From the IMG/VR virus record IMGVR_UViG_3300046360_000144, positions 1-35,846 of that record: 35,846 nucleotides of DNA; one strand, written 5' to 3'. The DNA is from a virus. Within the stretch, counting starts at the first letter, position 1. Every line of letters begins with the position of its first letter. Below the pieces are notes generated by a model that was given only the letters and a program-made list of their open reading frames with translations, was not told the origin of the DNA and did not search any database. A program made the translations under genes and the position numbers. Positions 6,585-19,740 of the stretch are shown here, piece by piece.

Positions 6585-9500
6585 ATGAATTTAGATATCG
6601 AGACAAAAATACAACTTAATAAATTTGTTCCGCGTCCATATCAACGTCCAATTTGTGATGCTTTTGAGAATAAACATTTTAAGAAGTTAATATGCGTGAT
6701 GCCAAGACGGTGTATATCTGGCAATACTCATATAACGATGTCTGATGGATCTTGGAAATTTCTTAAAGACGTTGTTCCTGGGGATAAGGTATTATCTTGG
6801 GATGGTAATAAGTTAGTGACAGATATTGTTAAAGATGTTTGGTCGACAGGAATTAAGAAAACTAAATCTGTTAGGTCTGGTTCATATCTTCCTGTTGTTA
6901 CATCTGATAATCATGTATTTGCTAGTACGACATCTATCTCTTCATGTGTAAGTTGGTTAGAGATATCGAAAACAAATAAGCATAGAAGTCTTCTACAGTA
7001 TGCAGGAATTAAGAGTGGTTTGTTACATGATTTGCGGGTAGCTGAATTTCTTGGGTTTATGTTATCTGATGGTTATTGTTCTGGTGATCAGCAGGCAAAA
7101 TTTACCAACATTAATACTGATATTCTTGATCGAGTTGAATGTTTAACCAAAGAATTATTTGATATTAAAGTAAGGCGTATACCTAATGGTAATGCATTTG
7201 ATTTAAGGTTTTCAAATGGTACTACGGGTGGTGGTGCTTTTAAGAATCCAGTTAAAGAATTTTTTAAGTTACATGATATTAATATGCAAAAGTCTGTTAG
7301 AAGGCTACCTGCTATAATCTGGAGCTTTGATGAGCAGTCAATTCTTTGTTTCTTTTCTGCTTTAATTTCTGGTGATGGAAATATATTTGCTCACGCTGAA
7401 GGGTTTACGGCAAAAGATACTGGTCATGAAATTAATCCTAGCGTTGAGATTACTCTTAATTGTGGTCAGAGTTATTTATATGGTTGGGATATATATTGGC
7501 TTCTTAGGAAGATTGGTATTGTTTCACAAGTTCCATATCTTGAGAAGCAATCAAACTGGAAAATAAAAATAGCAAAAGGTCTTGGTGTTAGAAAGTTATT
7601 ATCAGCAACAACGATTTGTGGAAAAGTAGATGCTCAAAAAAAAGCATTAGATGCAACTCAATTCATTACAAAGTCTACAAAAATCATTAAGGGTTGTTTT
7701 AGATCTCGATTTAAGATTCATGATTTAGATGAAGAAGAACTTTATGACCTTGAAACAGAAACGCATCATAACTTTATAGCTAATGGATATCTTGTACATA
7801 ATAGTGGGAAAGATATTGTTGCCTGGAACTTAATGATTCGAGCGGCAATAAGACGTGTCGGTTTATATGTGTATGCTCTTCCTTCGGCTGTTCAAGCTCG
7901 AAGAGTATTATTTGATGGTATTACCTTATCAGGTCAGAAGTTTTTAGATTTTATCCCGCATGAGTTAATTCAAAGTATTAATATTCAGCAGATGAAAGTC
8001 ACGCTCATCAATAATAGCACGATTATATTTACTGGTAGTGAGAATTATGATGCACTTCGTGGTACAAACCCTCTAGGTGTTGTTATCAGTGAAGCTGCAT
8101 ACACACACCCTCAGTTTTATCCAACGATTAGACCAGCGCTTCTTGCAAGTGATGGTTTTGTTATTTTGATCAGTACACCTTTTGGTGAGAATCACTTTTA
8201 TACGTTGTATCAAATTGCTAAAGATAATCCAGATGATTGGTATTCATGTTTTATGACGATCAATGATACAAATCACGTATCAGCTGAAGAGATTGAGCGA
8301 GAAATTGAATCTGGTGAGATTAGTCCAGATATGGCGGAACAAGAATATCGCTGCTTTCCTGCGGGTCAATCAGTCTTGATGAGTGATGGTGTAAAAAATA
8401 TTGAAGATGTAAAGCCTGATGATTTATGTATTTCTCATTCTGGTCGTATTCGTAAAGTTTTGGGTGTTATCTCTAGCCATTATGATGGCGATTTAATTGA
8501 AATTAGTTCTTATGGATCATCGGAAGTTATTAAATGTACTCCTAATCATCCTATAAGAATTCTTGATGCAACCACTCAGACGTATTCATGGAAAAATGCT
8601 GGAAGTATTACAGAGAAAGACTTGCTCGTGTTTCCAAAAATGATAATCAAAAATAACTTTAGCTTGGTTTCATATGAGCTTTGCATGCTTATAGCGTGGT
8701 ATATAACAGAAGGTAGTTCTTTCCAGAATGGTCTTGCGTATAGTGTTGGAAAAGAAGAAGAAGTTGAAAGAGTTACTTTATTGTTAAGTAAATTAAATAC
8801 TGAGTACTCTTTAATGTCGGTTGAAAATTCGAAATGTGTTAATATTGTTGTGTATAATACTCAGCTGGTTGATTTTTTTAAGTCGTTTTGTGGCACACAA
8901 TCAAACAATAAATATATACCATTTTCTCTTATTTCTGGATTTGAAGAAGAGTTTTTCTTTGAATTAATGAAAGGTGATGGGTGTTATTCTGAATCTGGAT
9001 ATAGTAAAAAATATAGTTATACAACAGTTAGTAAATCTCTTGCTTATCAAGTTCAGATACTAGCTAATTCATTGCCTATGGGGTTTGCTGCGGGCATTAC
9101 TGAGCGTGCTCCATACATTGGTAATATTGAAGGAAGATTTGTTAATTGCCAAAGATCATATTCAGTTCAAATAACAATTCCTCCTGTTGGAAGAAAAGTT
9201 AAACATAATTGGCTAAGGAGAGCTAAGAATGGAATTGGCGCTAAGATTAAGTCTATAGGAAAGTCTCATTATTCTGGTACGGTATATAATTTTCAGGTTC
9301 AGTATGATGAATCTTATGTTATTGCTGGAAGGGCTGTTCATAATTGTTCGTTTGGAATTGGTGCAATTGGTGCGTATTATGCTACCTATTTGAATCGTAT
9401 GGAGCTTAATAACCAAGTAGGTCTTGTTGACTGGGAACCAAATTACCCAGTTCATAGTGCATGGGATATTGGAGTTCGTGATTCAACTGCTATTTTAATG

Positions 9501-10853
9501 TTTCAAGTTATTGGTCGTCAAGTAAATATTATTGATATGTATCAGAAGTCGGATGTGGGACTCGAGCATTATATTAATGTTTTACAAAATAAGCCGTATA
9601 CCTGGGGAAAACACATTGCTCCTCATGATATTGCGGTGCGTGAGTTTACATCTGGTGGATTATCTCGATTTGAGAAAGCAGCACAACTTGGTATTAAATT
9701 TATCATTGCACCAAATATTTCTATTATGGATGGTATTGAATCGGTGCGTACAACACTTCCTCGGGTGTATGTAGATAATAATAGATGTAAGACGCTTGTT
9801 GCTGCGCTTCGTAACTATAGAAAGCAATATGATGCAGCAACAAAAACATATAAGCCACAACCGCTTCATGATGAGAATTCACATATATGTTTTACTTCTG
9901 ATACATTGGTATTGACGCATACCGGTATGCGTCAGATAATAGATCTTGATGATGGTGATAAAGTTTTAACATTGCGAGGTTGGTCTAAATGCACGAAAGC
10001 AATCAAAACCAAAGAAAATGTGAGCATTGTGGAAGTTTTGTTCAAAGATGGTACACGAGTGAAATGTACGCCGGATCATTTATTTCTGACGGAGAGCGGG
10101 TGGAAATCCGCAGAATCCCTAATGAAGGGTTCCTTGATCCAATCTACCTTGACGGAATCACTCAATATTTTAACGGAATTTTGTATAAAAAATGGCCTCG
10201 AGAGAGATATTATTCAAGAGGTGGGGATAGATTGCATCGAGACGTTTGGAGATCAGCTTTTGGAGAAATCCCTAAAAATACGCATATTCATCACCGGGAT
10301 AATAACATTAATAACAACTCGCTTTCAAATCTTGAATGTATCGATTCTTTTGAGCATCTTAAATTACCTCGACCTAATAGTAAAGGATTTAGTGGAAAAG
10401 CACGGTATGCGGCTGCTGAATGGCATAGATCTGAAGATGGTAGATTGTGGCATAGAAGACATGCTCAAAAATATGCAGTGTGGGAAAAATTTAAACGAGA
10501 GCCTAGAAACTGTTTGTATTGCTCTAAAGAGTTTGACTGCCTTATTAGAAAAATCAATTTCCAAAAGTTTTGTCACCCAAATTGCAAAGCCTCTTATTAT
10601 AGAAAGCGTAAGCTTGCTTCAAAATAAAGAGGATGTTTGGGATATATCAGTTCCTGATTTTCATCATTTTTCTCTTTCTAATGGAGCTATTGTGCATAAT
10701 TGTGATGCTTTACGATATTTATGCTTAACGCTTCCAAAGGTTCAAAATCAATCAAATCCAGAAGCGCTTGAGCGTCGATTCAATGAGGCTGTCTATGGAA
10801 ATCCAGATATATCTAAAAGTAATTTCTTTAATGATCCAGTTGATCGATATTAA
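6585..10853 (+). CDS. terL: Terminase large subunit precursor with three inteins
   Basis: The 1422-residue frame encodes a terminase of 456 residues after removal of three inteins (6711-7802, 8352-9344, 9888-10700). The extein shows the Walker A site split as MPRR/SGKDIVAWN. The Walker B-like strand reads GVVISEAAY, with Ser in place of the usual Asp before the catalytic Glu. The coupling motif is FVILISTPFG. The RuvC-like nuclease has Asp in SAWDIGVRD (near 9465), in IAPHDIAV and in CDALRY (10704). The protein is the ATP motor that packages DNA and cuts it at headful ends. Start: ATG 6585 after AAAAGGAG. Inteins sit at the ATP site, at the linker between ATPase and nuclease, and directly before the last nuclease Asp, the kind of conserved sites inteins favour. 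Without splicing, both active sites are interrupted. Confidence 0.93.
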   Translation: MNLDIETKIQLNKFVPRPYQRPICDAFENKHFKKLICVMPRRCISGNTHITMSDGSWKFLKDVVPGDKVLSWDGNKLVTDIVKDVWSTGIKKTKSVRSGSYLPVVTSDNHVFASTTSISSCVSWLEISKTNKHRSLLQYAGIKSGLLHDLRVAEFLGFMLSDGYCSGDQQAKFTNINTDILDRVECLTKELFDIKVRRIPNGNAFDLRFSNGTTGGGAFKNPVKEFFKLHDINMQKSVRRLPAIIWSFDEQSILCFFSALISGDGNIFAHAEGFTAKDTGHEINPSVEITLNCGQSYLYGWDIYWLLRKIGIVSQVPYLEKQSNWKIKIAKGLGVRKLLSATTICGKVDAQKKALDATQFITKSTKIIKGCFRSRFKIHDLDEEELYDLETETHHNFIANGYLVHNSGKDIVAWNLMIRAAIRRVGLYVYALPSAVQARRVLFDGITLSGQKFLDFIPHELIQSINIQQMKVTLINNSTIIFTGSENYDALRGTNPLGVVISEAAYTHPQFYPTIRPALLASDGFVILISTPFGENHFYTLYQIAKDNPDDWYSCFMTINDTNHVSAEEIEREIESGEISPDMAEQEYRCFPAGQSVLMSDGVKNIEDVKPDDLCISHSGRIRKVLGVISSHYDGDLIEISSYGSSEVIKCTPNHPIRILDATTQTYSWKNAGSITEKDLLVFPKMIIKNNFSLVSYELCMLIAWYITEGSSFQNGLAYSVGKEEEVERVTLLLSKLNTEYSLMSVENSKCVNIVVYNTQLVDFFKSFCGTQSNNKYIPFSLISGFEEEFFFELMKGDGCYSESGYSKKYSYTTVSKSLAYQVQILANSLPMGFAAGITERAPYIGNIEGRFVNCQRSYSVQITIPPVGRKVKHNWLRRAKNGIGAKIKSIGKSHYSGTVYNFQVQYDESYVIAGRAVHNCSFGIGAIGAYYATYLNRMELNNQVGLVDWEPNYPVHSAWDIGVRDSTAILMFQVIGRQVNIIDMYQKSDVGLEHYINVLQNKPYTWGKHIAPHDIAVREFTSGGLSRFEKAAQLGIKFIIAPNISIMDGIESVRTTLPRVYVDNNRCKTLVAALRNYRKQYDAATKTYKPQPLHDENSHICFTSDTLVLTHTGMRQIIDLDDGDKVLTLRGWSKCTKAIKTKENVSIVEVLFKDGTRVKCTPDHLFLTESGWKSAESLMKGSLIQSTLTESLNILTEFCIKNGLERDIIQEVGIDCIETFGDQLLEKSLKIRIFITGIITLITTRFQILNVSILLSILNYLDLIVKDLVEKHGMRLLNGIDLKMVDCGIEDMLKNMQCGKNLNESLETVCIALKSLTALLEKSISKSFVTQIAKPLIIESVSLLQNKEDVWDISVPDFHHFSLSNGAIVHNCDALRYLCLTLPKVQNQSNPEALERRFNEAVYGNPDISKSNFFNDPVDRY
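6711..7802 (+). other. Intein 1 of terminase (364 aa, LAGLIDADG type), in the Walker A site
   Basis: The intein begins at Cys (CISGNTHITM, block A) and ends LVHN, followed by Ser as the first extein residue. Block B has VTSDNH, with the TxxH pattern. The central part has two LAGLIDADG-like helices, EFLGFMLSDGYCSGD and FFSALISGDGNIF, so a homing endonuclease is included. Block F reads HNFIANGYLVHN with the penultimate His and terminal Asn needed for splicing. All catalytic positions appear intact. Confidence 0.9.
8352..9344 (+). other. Intein 2 of terminase (331 aa, LAGLIDADG type)
   Basis: It begins CFPAGQSVLM and ends GRAVHN before extein Cys. Block B is KCTPNHPIRI. The endonuclease helices are MLIAWYITEGSS and FFELMKGDGCYSE; the acidic residue of the first is Glu. 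Block F is YNFQVQYDESYVIAGRAVHN. The spliced junction gives EYR-CSFGIG. Splicing residues are complete. Confidence 0.9.
9888..10700 (+). other. Intein 3 of terminase (271 aa) with an out-of-frame HNH gene in its middle
   Basis: Block A is CFTSDTLVLTHTG; block B is KCTPDHLFLTESG; the C-terminal block is DISVPDFHHFSLSNGAIVHN, then extein Cys. The splicing blocks are complete, but the 160 or so residues between them match no endonuclease. That stretch is the terminase-frame reading of an HNH gene coded in another frame (9989-10627). The spliced junction gives SHI-CDALRY, directly at the last nuclease Asp. Confidence 0.88.
9989..10627 (+). CDS. HNH homing endonuclease nested out of frame inside intein 3
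   Basis: The 212-residue protein is read two bases out of register with the terminase frame. The HNH core is RLHRDVWRSAFGEIPKNTHI followed by HHRDNNINNNSLSNLECI and FEHLKL: the two His and the Asn of the motif are present. Downstream are AAEWHRSEDGRLWHRRHAQ, usual in this family, and a C-terminal zinc finger (CLYCSKEF, FCHPNCKASYYRKRK). The N-terminus also has CEHCG. The ATG at 9989 follows GAGG (9976-9979) with a 9-base spacing, so independent translation is plausible. The stop at 10627 lies right before the intein's C-terminal block. It probably makes the intein mobile by cutting intein-less terminase genes. The first 50 codons overlap intein block B, which is also conserved, so this stretch is truly dual coding. 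Confidence 0.85.
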   Translation: MHESNQNQRKCEHCGSFVQRWYTSEMYAGSFISDGERVEIRRIPNEGFLDPIYLDGITQYFNGILYKKWPRERYYSRGGDRLHRDVWRSAFGEIPKNTHIHHRDNNINNNSLSNLECIDSFEHLKLPRPNSKGFSGKARYAAAEWHRSEDGRLWHRRHAQKYAVWEKFKREPRNCLYCSKEFDCLIRKINFQKFCHPNCKASYYRKRKLASK

Positions 10854-17130: not shown

Positions 17131-19740
17131 ATGTCAATAACAACAACATCTAGTTTGCCGGCTCCAGTTCAGCAATCTTTTAGCTATAAATTGCTGAGCG
17201 TGCCCGTTCCAAACATGATCCATTAATATTAAGTGGATGTTAAATCTTTGGTAATTGACTTGGAAACCCGACGGGGTGACAAGGGGCAAGTTTAAATACA
17301 GCCTGAACGACTAAGCCCAGAGACGCTGAAAAGCGATGCGATAGTCTAAACACGGAATATATATGAAATCCGTGAGGTGATGTCGAAGAACTCACCCGCT
17401 ACGAAAGTAGTCAGTAAGCTAAGCGCTTCTAGCTGAAAGTAATAGATTGAAAATTCCAGCATTATTGAAGCAGATGCCTCGTAATGGTGGTACTACTCTA
17501 CGTATGCGTAGATATAATCCATTAAGCACAGCTATGGTTCCACTAGGAAATACTGGCGTCACTCCCCCTGCGCAGAATCTAACTGCTGTAGATATTGACG
17601 CTAAGATTTCTTTCTACGGAACATATGTAATCCTTAAAATTGTTGAGGATTTAAAATCTTGGGTAATTGACTTGGAAGCCCGATGGGGTAACAAGGCGCA
17701 AGCTATTATAGCAGCGTGAACGACTAAACCCTGAGACCCAGTAATGGGATGCGATAGTCTAAGCACAACGTATAAAATGAAGGTTGTGAGGGAGATTCGA
17801 AGAAGTTTCCCCGCCGTGGTAGCAGGTCATAAAAGTAATAGATGGAATGAACAAGTAACGCTACAGAACCAAGACCCTAAATATATAAACTAACGGTTCT
17901 CTGAGATCTTTGAAATTAACTAAGCTGTACCATTCATCTGACATATGTTATAATATAGATATATGTAACTTATTAGGATGGATGATGGATGACAGAAAAT
18001 TATTGATGGCATATCTCGCTGGAGTTATGGATGGAGATGGTAGTTTTTCTTTGTTAAGGCTAAAAAAAGGAAGTAAGAATTATCTTTATGCTCCTATGCT
18101 TCAATGTGCTTCTTGGAGGCTTGAATTTATTCATTTGCTGAAAGAAACTTTTGGTGGAAATTTAGTAAAAGGAAAGATGCATATCAATAAAAAAGGTGAA
18201 GAAACTCACGCTTTAACTTATTGGAAACTTAGAAGTAATAGGAATTGTCTAGGCGCGTTGCTGGAATTAAAGCCTTATTTAAGGATAAAAAAGAATCGAG
18301 CAAGTAATTTATTGGCCTTTATAAAGTTTTCTAAGTTTGTTCGAGGTAAGCAATTGGGCGAGGATGTTCTAATCATAAGGGAAAGCCAATATGATGAATC
18401 TATAAGAGAAAATTCTTGGGAGTTTGCTTGTAGGAAAATATTTAAGCCTGATATTAATGATAGTGAAGAGGTTTCATGGTCTTATATTGCTGGTATATGG
18501 GATACTGATGGTTCTTTCTCTATAAAGAAACAGGTATCAAATAAAGGAACTCATGTGATTAATCCTAGGTATTTACCAGTAATATCACTGGGAATGACTG
18601 ACACAAGGGCTATAAATTATGTAATGGCAATTTTCCCAGAAGGTAAATTATATAATCCTAAAAATGCATATACAAAATATAAAACCCATTATCAATTTGG
18701 AATTTATACCAAGAATGAATGTGTTTCATTCCTAACAAAAATAATACCGTATTTGAGATCTAAGAAGCAAAACGCTTTAGAGCTTTTGAAGTTCTGTAAA
18801 GAATCAAGAAATACTGGATATTGCAAGGCTGGTATTCCTAAAGAAGAACTACAATTCCGAGAAGAATGCTATCAAAATTTATGTCATTTAAATAAATATG
18901 GGGTCTATAAACCCTCTCTGATTGACTTGGAAACCCGACGGGGTGACAGGGCGGAAGCTGAATAAGCACCGTGAACGACTAAGTGAGAGGGCATCTTTTT
19001 AAAGATGATGCGATAGTCTAAACACGAACTATAAATGAAATTCGTGAGGTGAATCCGAAGCGGTTTGCCCGCCACATAAGTGGTCACAAAAGTAATAGAA
19101 ATTGGTATTGAATGAATGTGCTGCTCGTTTAGGTGTATCGTTGCGTCAAACTGAAGATCAGTTGACTCGTGATATGCTTGCTTCAACAGCTGCATTTATT
19201 AACTGTACAGCTGGTACAAATGGTGATAGCCCTACGCAAATCACTCGTTCTGATATTGATGACGTGGTAAGAGCCCTGTTGGGTAATAATGCTTACACTG
19301 TTCTTGATAATATCGAAGGTGAAGATAAATTTGGTACAGCTCCTGTTCGTGATGCATACTTTGCATTATGTCATACAGATTTGACCAAAGATCTTGATTC
19401 TGTTGATGGTTTTATCCAAAAGAACCAGTATCCATCTCCGATGAACGCACTTCGTTCAGAGTGGGGTGCTGCAGGTAACTTGAGATTCCTTGTTTCAAGT
19501 ATTGGTTCAACTACTACTGGTGCATCGAACCTTGGTAATACTGTATATAATATTTTCTGTGTTGGTATGGAAGCGTATGCTTGCGTTCAACAAGATGGAT
19601 ATTCTGCTCAGTTTATCTATAGACCACCAATATATGATGGACCTTTAGCTCTTAATGCGTCAGTCGGTTACAAGTTTGCAGAAGTTCCACGTATTCTCAA
19701 TGATCTTTGGATCTTGAATTTACGTTGTACATTAGCGTAA
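17131..19740 (+). CDS. Major capsid protein (N4-gp56/P22-like), interrupted by three group I introns
   Basis: Four exons are deduced: 17131-17223 (31 codons), 17450-17635 (62), 17846-17878 (11) and 19105-19740 (212 with stop), giving a 315-residue protein. Each 5' exon ends in U and pairs with a guide sequence in the intron (AUCCAU/GUGGAU, AAUCCUU/GAGGAUU, AGACCCU/GGGGUCU), each with a terminal U-G. Each intron ends in G. The spliced joins read PNMIH-KIPALLK, GTYVIL-NEQVTLQNQDP and QDP-VLNECAARLG, which restores a normal N4-gp56-type capsid N-terminus, including MRRYNPLSTAMVPLGNTG. The C-terminal part has RDAYFALCHTDLTKDL, typical of the family. Start ATG 17131 with TAAGGAA. It forms the icosahedral shell. 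No exon is a complete gene by itself. Confidence 0.88.
17224..17449 (+). ncRNA. Group I intron 1 of the capsid gene (226 nt)
   Basis: It starts after AUCCAU and the guide GUGGAU (17233-17238) pairs with it. The core has GACTTGGAAACCCGACGGGG, AACGACTAAGC and GATAGTCTAA (P7 arms GACTA/TAGTC), and the end AAAGTAATAGATTG. These segments recur in introns 2 and 3. No protein is encoded. Confidence 0.85.
17636..17845 (+). ncRNA. Group I intron 2 of the capsid gene (210 nt)
   Basis: The 5' site follows AAUCCUU; guide GAGGAUU begins nine bases into the intron. The core GACTTGGAAGCCCGATGGGG, GAACGACTAAACC and GATAGTCTAAGCAC matches intron 1, and the end is AAAAGTAATAGATGG. Of the two Gs at the end, only the second gives an in-frame join (CTT-AAT). 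No protein is encoded. Confidence 0.85.
17879..19104 (+). ncRNA. Group I intron 3 of the capsid gene (1226 nt) with endonuclease gene in the P1 loop
   Basis: The 5' site follows AGACCCU (ending 17878), but its guide GGGGUCU lies about 1 kb away at 18900-18906. The endonuclease gene fills the gap, so it is inserted in the P1 loop. The catalytic core (18921-19104) matches introns 1 and 2: GACTTGGAAACCCGACGGGG, GAACGACTAAG, GATAGTCTAAACACGA, and the end AAAGTAATAGAAATTG. Confidence 0.85.
17985..18965 (+). CDS. LAGLIDADG homing endonuclease of intron 3
   Basis: The 326-residue protein has two LAGLIDADG motifs, LMAYLAGVMDGDGSF near the N-terminus and WSYIAGIWDTDGSF in the middle, each with an active-site Asp, so it should work as a monomer. 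Such enzymes cut intron-less copies of the capsid gene, causing intron spread. ATG 17985 lies 6 bases after AGGA (17975-17978); an ATG at 17982 and a TTG at 17910 are less likely. The last 20 residues (YKPSLIDLETRRGDRAEAE) are encoded by the guide sequence and the catalytic core of the ribozyme itself, so RNA and protein function share bases. Translation through the core could compete with folding, a possible regulatory conflict. Confidence 0.9.
   Translation: MDDRKLLMAYLAGVMDGDGSFSLLRLKKGSKNYLYAPMLQCASWRLEFIHLLKETFGGNLVKGKMHINKKGEETHALTYWKLRSNRNCLGALLELKPYLRIKKNRASNLLAFIKFSKFVRGKQLGEDVLIIRESQYDESIRENSWEFACRKIFKPDINDSEEVSWSYIAGIWDTDGSFSIKKQVSNKGTHVINPRYLPVISLGMTDTRAINYVMAIFPEGKLYNPKNAYTKYKTHYQFGIYTKNECVSFLTKIIPYLRSKKQNALELLKFCKESRNTGYCKAGIPKEELQFREECYQNLCHLNKYGVYKPSLIDLETRRGDRAEAE
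19105..19740 (+). CDS. Major capsid protein, exon 4 (C-terminal two thirds)
   Basis: This is the largest exon and contains most of the capsid fold, ending LNDLWILNLRCTLA. It begins VLNECAARLGVSLRQTEDQL right after the intron's terminal G (19104). An in-frame TTG at 19102 lies in the intron and has no ribosome-binding site, so it should not be read as an independent gene start. Confidence 0.85.
   Translation, partial: VLNECAARLGVSLRQTEDQLTRDMLASTAAFINCTAGTNGDSPTQITRSDIDDVVRALLGNNAYTVLDNIEGEDKFGTAPVRDAYFALCHTDLTKDLDSVDGFIQKNQYPSPMNALRSEWGAAGNLRFLVSSIGSTTTGASNLGNTVYNIFCVGMEAYACVQQDGYSAQFIYRPPIYDGPLALNASVGYKFAEVPRILNDLWILNLRCTLA

Follow-up and report, generated by a model that had tools for sequence, protein, structure and literature searches.

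The usual teaching is that inteins are bifunctional, a splicing domain and an endonuclease sharing one polypeptide. In the fractured genes that Dassa et al. reportedly described in 2009, split inteins are said to have a free-standing endonuclease between their halves. Here we analyse a viral DNA of 35,846 nucleotides (IMG/VR record IMGVR_UViG_3300046360_000144; this whole stretch is called the window), in which the third intein of the terminase large subunit (TerL), intein 3, contains a gene for an HNH protein in another reading frame. The anatomy and the dual coding are shown by sequence analysis, and intein 3 is, we think with high confidence, a mobile intein whose homing endonuclease would be a separate overlapping gene and not a fused domain.

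Actinobacteriophage DNA methylase genes can contain the ShiLan domain, an HNH endonuclease 'hidden' out of frame (PMC11855218). As in ShiLan, the HNH gene of intein 3 lies out of frame in a host gene whose own frame is open, has zinc fingers either side of its HNH core, and has a disjunct distribution that suggests homing. Unlike intein 3, ShiLan has no intein or other splicing element, its insert stays in the methylase and its host gene is non-essential; its HNH gene has a GTG start with no detectable ribosome-binding site, and neither a promoter nor an overlap with a functional block of the host frame is reported. Since the host-frame insert here holds intein blocks, we do not file intein 3 as a ShiLan domain. 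Out-of-frame HNH genes are mentioned in PMC11855218 and in the announcement PMC12613952, in neither case inside an intein. We found no open-access description of an intein version of the hidden HNH, and a related preprint (10.1101/2025.01.02.630785, '... Non-Canonical Architecture') could anticipate part of it.

Classical HNH or LAGLIDADG inteins resemble intein 3 in having an associated nuclease and a Hint domain that shows C1, block B, HN and +1 Cys; cyanophage CL131 has one in its dCTP deaminase, of the in-frame HNH_3 kind (PMC6293099). Their endonuclease, however, is an in-frame domain freed by splicing, whereas that of intein 3 is a separate overlapping gene in the +2 frame, the intein itself holding only filler that is predicted to be disordered; intein 3 is thus not a bifunctional intein in the classical sense of an endonuclease fused in frame with the Hint domain. 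The T4 intron endonucleases are similar in that the gene lies inside a splicing element with its own promoter (in intein 3, a putative one), ribosome-binding site and start, uncoupled from host gene expression. They differ in lying in RNA introns, where little dual coding is needed, and in belonging to GIY-YIG or other HNH families; autorepression has been tested there. The fractured-gene layout, with an endonuclease gene between the N and C parts of an intein, is matched exactly by four TerL loci found in this work (L015, L054, L068 and L091). The window does not have it, its TerL being a single open reading frame (ORF), and in the nested class as a whole the host frame is unbroken, so that splicing would be in cis from one polypeptide.

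A nuclease gene within intein 3

Intein 3 interrupts TerL immediately ahead of its conserved D-A-L-R-Y motif. It is matched by PF14890 (E=5e-13) and by the NCBI intein N- and C-terminal models, and it has all the sequence hallmarks of an intein (a position-1 nucleophile, TxxH in block B, a C-terminal HN and C, S or T at +1), with Cys first, block B as VKCTPDH, HN last and then Cys. In an AlphaFold2 (AF2) model, residues 1-90 and 233-271 mostly have a predicted local distance difference test (pLDDT) score of 80-97, and residues 90-232 are near-random. The two ordered parts together give a Hint fold, with Z 19.5 against 6riz and 1mi8 (the gp41-1 and DnaB inteins).

The HNH protein matches HNH_3 of Pfam (1.6e-10; 40.8 bits against a curated cut-off of 24.8, catalytic His and Asn present) and phrog_15471, 'HNH endonuclease' (3.5e-23). 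The catalytic HNH residues are near-invariant across 48 sequences, and the conserved protein also has two Cys pairs and a zinc ribbon. The predicted structure of the protein has a mean pLDDT of 86, and in it the part that overlaps block B forms an ordered beta hairpin (residues 26-42). Its top structural match is the intron-encoded HNH homing endonuclease I-HmuI of phage SPO1 (1u3e; Z 6.4, root-mean-square deviation 3.8, 82 residues aligned, 16% identity). An earlier reading of the same DNA, made from the sequence alone (the sequence-only reading), had described intact splicing blocks without an in-frame endonuclease, and a 212-residue HNH protein with HNH core and zinc finger ending before the last intein blocks. 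Both descriptions hold, and the HNH similarity in the second frame that it proposed to look for is strong.

Throughout the HNH ORF the TerL frame has no stops, as that reading had also noted. Its further statement that many would be expected depends on what is held constant: base composition alone gives 15.7, but synonymous recoding of the HNH protein with the codon usage of this phage gives a mean of 4.3, with P(0)=0.005. Taken alone, the open frame in one genome is suggestive and not decisive. It is only moderately surprising, and it is the comparative evidence that decides.

Open host frames and frozen codons in relatives

In phage records searched by tblastn, members of this HNH family either stand free, next to terminase or portal genes, or are nested in TerL inteins; the same +2 nesting is seen in Tetrasphaera phage TJE1, Rhodobacteraceae phage LS06-2018-MD07 and Acinetobacter phage Highwayman. 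Viral contigs yielded 80 loci in a first scan. When the phage records are added, the loci nested in an open host frame number 76, the window included. PF14890 matches 67 of them, their extein parts matching terminase families, and C1 is present in 75/76, the last N in 75/76 and C, S or T at +1 in 76/76. The register is that of the window in 72/76. The other four (L028, L035, L038 and L065) are nested TerL-intein HNH genes in a different register, perhaps with a separate origin of dual coding. Bacterial genome contigs also carry the nested arrangement, and on the Halobacterium plasmid pGSL19_54.9 (L096) a nested TerL intein-HNH adjoins a portal gene, on what is an archaeal plasmid or provirus. 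A search for close DNA relatives of the window's intein found none.

Host-frame stops were absent from all 76 nested loci, against an expected mean of 4.0 in the main register and 15-20 in the other. Over the 72 main-register loci the sum of log10 P is about -167, a figure uncorrected for relatedness and computed on loci picked by openness. In 18 other relatives, unrelated free-standing ones included, such stops occur at expected numbers. There were also none in any of the additional loci of the window's clade (defined below) or in 12/14 genome or plasmid loci. As the nested loci had first been classed by openness, the test was repeated blind: intein N and C blocks were detected with stops masked, after training on half of the first set, and openness played no part in the choice. 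The host frame was unbroken in 127/131 loci with both intein blocks and in 0/16 with neither.

The four exceptions are the loci with the fractured-gene layout, in which TerL is broken at the HNH gene: TerL-N with the intein N half, a stop, a free HNH gene, then the intein C half with the TerL C-terminus in another frame. They are likely to be trans-splicing terminases. In one of them, Lactobacillus phage CL2 (L015), the final TerL piece is unannotated.

The search for homologues with terminase-frame stops, suggested by the sequence-only reading as a check, thus found the frame kept open, and a sequencing error is excluded by a register common to well over 100 contigs. Judged by these comparisons, the nested intein-HNH is a widespread class, with well over 100 loci in very different phages, and not the oddity of one phage that it had first seemed.

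A second scan, in which 80 of 305 relatives were kept, placed the window in a clade of 86 loci, 61 of them below 90% HNH identity, with GC contents of 31-65%. The TerL frame is unbroken in 86/86. The insertion site is at, or a few residues before, TerL D-A-x-R-Y in this clade and mostly in the same region in others. Free-standing homologues start at residue 49 of the HNH protein, and residues 1-48 were considered as a chance extension; this was rejected, since the clade conserves them. The N-terminal part that overlaps block B is likewise absent from distant relatives and conserved throughout the clade. The C-x2-C motif lies a fixed 40 nt from block B in 79/80 loci where both were located, the lone outlier being a mis-detected motif, and it needs a third-base T in two intein codons that specify different residues from locus to locus (N, D, S, R or A in one; L, I or V in the other).

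Synonymous sites were examined in the 61 sequences by dividing codon identity by the expectation from each contig's codon usage. Outside the overlaps, the eight codons that open the intein have a ratio of 1.10 and the 25 that close it 1.07. The ratio is higher at the C-x2-C (2.25) and where block B is overlapped (1.97-2.09), and it reaches 2.76 over a stretch of ten block-A codons that precede the HNH start. At the non-overlapped ends, third-base GC tracks the GC of the genome as expected (slopes of 1.54 and 1.73 against 1.59 and 1.70), but in the overlaps it does so only weakly (0.55 in block A). In this comparison, synonymous sites are frozen only where intein, HNH gene and promoter-like element overlap. 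The inteins have thus adapted to their genomes except where a second function sits, and the genome-like codon usage of their non-overlapped parts counts against recent transfer. Codon sharing between block B and the HNH N-terminus, and selection on both frames, which had been claimed from one sequence, are in this way shown computationally for the window's clade.

Expression, mobility and rival explanations

The block-A stretch contains a sigma-70 promoter-like element, missed by the sequence-only reading, that ends 48 nt upstream of the HNH start. Its clade consensus is TTGACR-N17-KATAAT, and the best sigma-70-like site has the same position and the 17-nt spacing in 55/61 members (57 if two shifted by 3 nt are counted). 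Codon choice follows the element, with Leu as TTG in 47/53 and Ile as ATA in 49/54, and also in genomes above 55% GC (14/20 and 17/20). The internal start that had been proposed at GAGG and ATG 9989 is supported, with ATG in 60/61 clade members and a Shine-Dalgarno (SD)-like 4-mer in 44/61 against a background of 12%. The promoter-like element suggests separate transcription of the nuclease in addition to separate translation, and independent expression of the HNH from TerL is strongly suggested for this clade. A different clade (L034, L051, L067) has a promoter-like TTGATA/TTGACT-17-[CG]ATAAT ahead of the HNH start, always 220 nt from intein C1.

The element might instead be an HNH binding or cleavage site or some other DNA-level signal, which we regard as doubtful. 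The spacer between the hexamers (CGTNACGGA) is conserved too in the clade (L016-L186), more than a promoter alone requires, and it resembles extein DNA coding DA(F)RY. However, the hexamers with their 17-nt spacing fit sigma-70 exactly and are correctly placed upstream of SD and ATG. The spacer was also tried as a mimic of the homing site: the best diagonal against the extein DNA has 8.65/15 matches, but 8.58 after recoding, so that the resemblance is about what the amino-acid motif alone gives, and near chance for one consensus pair. A perfect palindrome between the hexamers was considered as an operator; it shows no covariation in relatives, and an operator role is only a guess. In an extended scheme, a widespread class of inteins would have a homing endonuclease in the form of an autonomous overlapping gene; in one large clade, the codons of block A would double as a sigma-70 promoter plus an operator that mimics the terL homing site, the HNH would be transcribed separately from terL and repress itself, and block B would encode an essential zinc-binding part of it. 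This is put forward as a speculation that we think improbable as a package.

Mobility is indicated by distribution. Among relatives of the TerL of L177, 74/80 have an uninterrupted site, and between intein-bearing and empty TerL genes the flanks are 84-95% identical over 240 nt with precise junctions; with flanks so similar in genes that lack it, the intein is probably mobile. In 72% of pairs the HNH proteins are more alike than the exteins, by over 0.15 in identity, and 44 pairs combine HNH identity of at least 60% with extein identity of at most 30%, a mismatch which indicates that the histories of element and TerL are decoupled. In L210, one of the L177 TerL relatives, the intein is a different one and lies some three codons further downstream than usual.

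Several points weigh against our interpretation. The fold match of the HNH model to I-HmuI is modest. P values across relatives are not independent, and the loci came from HNH searches, so that decayed copies are under-sampled. Other nested clades show no general promoter enrichment (median p 0.44), the element being limited to the window's clade. Splicing, cleavage and homing are deduced from what is known of the families, and transcription too is inferred. Finally, the free-standing HNH relatives adjoin terL or portal genes, as they would if the HNH were chiefly a packaging or terminase accessory nuclease, kept for helping TerL and not a homing enzyme; the HNH of HK97 does act with terminase at cos (cited in PMC10448857). 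We consider this unlikely: the element is missing from TerL genes that are 84-95% identical around the site, its history is decoupled from that of TerL, and insertion so precise, at a conserved motif, is what inteins typically show.

Less likely still, indeed very improbable, is that -1 ribosomal frameshifting makes the HNH as a fusion to the N-terminal intein half. The register of 72/76 first-scan loci is that of a -1 shift, but it is also the cheapest one for stop avoidance (about 4 expected against 15-20), and four loci use the other. An HNH-frame stop lies no more than 20 codons upstream of Cys1 in 21/61 clade members, in the window there is one right before the ATG, and ATG, SD-like site and promoter-like element are all conserved. 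It is hardly credible that a frameshift in a normal in-frame HNH intein left the HNH frame behind as a relic, or that luck has kept the TerL frame open since: the one-genome probability under recoding is not extreme, but comparison has already refuted decay or chance, with well over 100 loci alike, invariant HNH residues, no host-frame stops and synonymous freezing in the overlaps, among relatives as far from identical as the 61 clade members.

Most likely, then, the HNH is a homing endonuclease expressed independently of TerL. Host RNA polymerase would make a short mRNA from the internal promoter in block A, from which the HNH protein would be translated at ATG 9989, apart from TerL. The nuclease would cut terL copies that lack the intein, at their DA(F/L)RY site, and their repair would bring in a copy of the whole intein. 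The TerL precursor would splice intein 3 out and stay active, the ends of the Hint domain being joined by stop-free, disordered filler.

Features of the TerL locus and of intein 3 (positions in the window)
Feature	Coordinates	Strand	Support or remark
TerL precursor ORF, 1422 aa, three inteins	6585..10853	+	PF14890 x3; phrog_2 terminase 4e-20
Intein 3 (271 aa), TerL frame; C1, block B, HN, +1 Cys	9888..10700	+	
Sigma-70 promoter-like element in intein block A: TTGACG (9912-9917), 17 nt, GATAAT (9935-9940)	9912..9940	+	clade conservation
Perfect 22-nt palindrome TGACGCATACCGGTATGCGTCA between the hexamers	9913..9934	+	partial palindrome in relatives (on average 7 of 11 pairs)
Shine-Dalgarno-like GAGG for HNH start	9976..9979	+	
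HNH endonuclease gene, 212 aa, +2 frame of TerL; in-frame TAA immediately 5' of ATG	9989..10627	+	HNH_3, phrog_15471
N-terminal C-x2-C of HNH protein, spanning intein codons N/D/S/R/A-A/V-x-L/I/V	10019..10030	+	in 86/86 clade loci
Intein block B (DGTRVKCTPDHLFLT)	10047..10091	+	overlaps HNH residues 20-35
TerL-frame filler, intein residues 90-232; open, predicted disordered, opposite HNH core	10155..10583	+	AF2, mostly pLDDT 25-55
HNH_3 catalytic core (HNH residues 81-118)	10229..10342	+	
C-terminal zinc ribbon CLYC...CHPNC of HNH protein	10511..10585	+	four Cys all invariant
Intein 3 C-terminal blocks (EDVWDISVPDFHHFSLSNGAIVHN), directly after HNH stop	10629..10700	+	

The window's context and what the arrangement means

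The TerL gene of the window has two more inteins, at 6711-7802 and 8352-9344. The second has an in-frame LAGLIDADG domain, so that classical and nested-type inteins stand side by side in one gene. Elsewhere, at 17910-18965, a free LAGLIDADG_1 endonuclease ORF lies between two ORFs resembling parts of one capsid gene. Rfam RNA families gave no match in the window, and none for an intron at this ORF.

Overall, the interpretation first drawn from the sequence is supported, with the corrections given above on its spread and on the promoter-like element. With separate frames, neither the regulation nor the evolution of the nuclease need be tied to its host, a late structural gene. Intein, nuclease, promoter-like element and ribosome site lie in one stretch, an internal control separates dual coding from recent transfer, and the arrangement offers a natural system for the study of overlapping genes. 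It also plausibly connects split inteins that have free-standing nucleases with continuous inteins, and it carries a warning that apparent mini-inteins may conceal an endonuclease in another frame.
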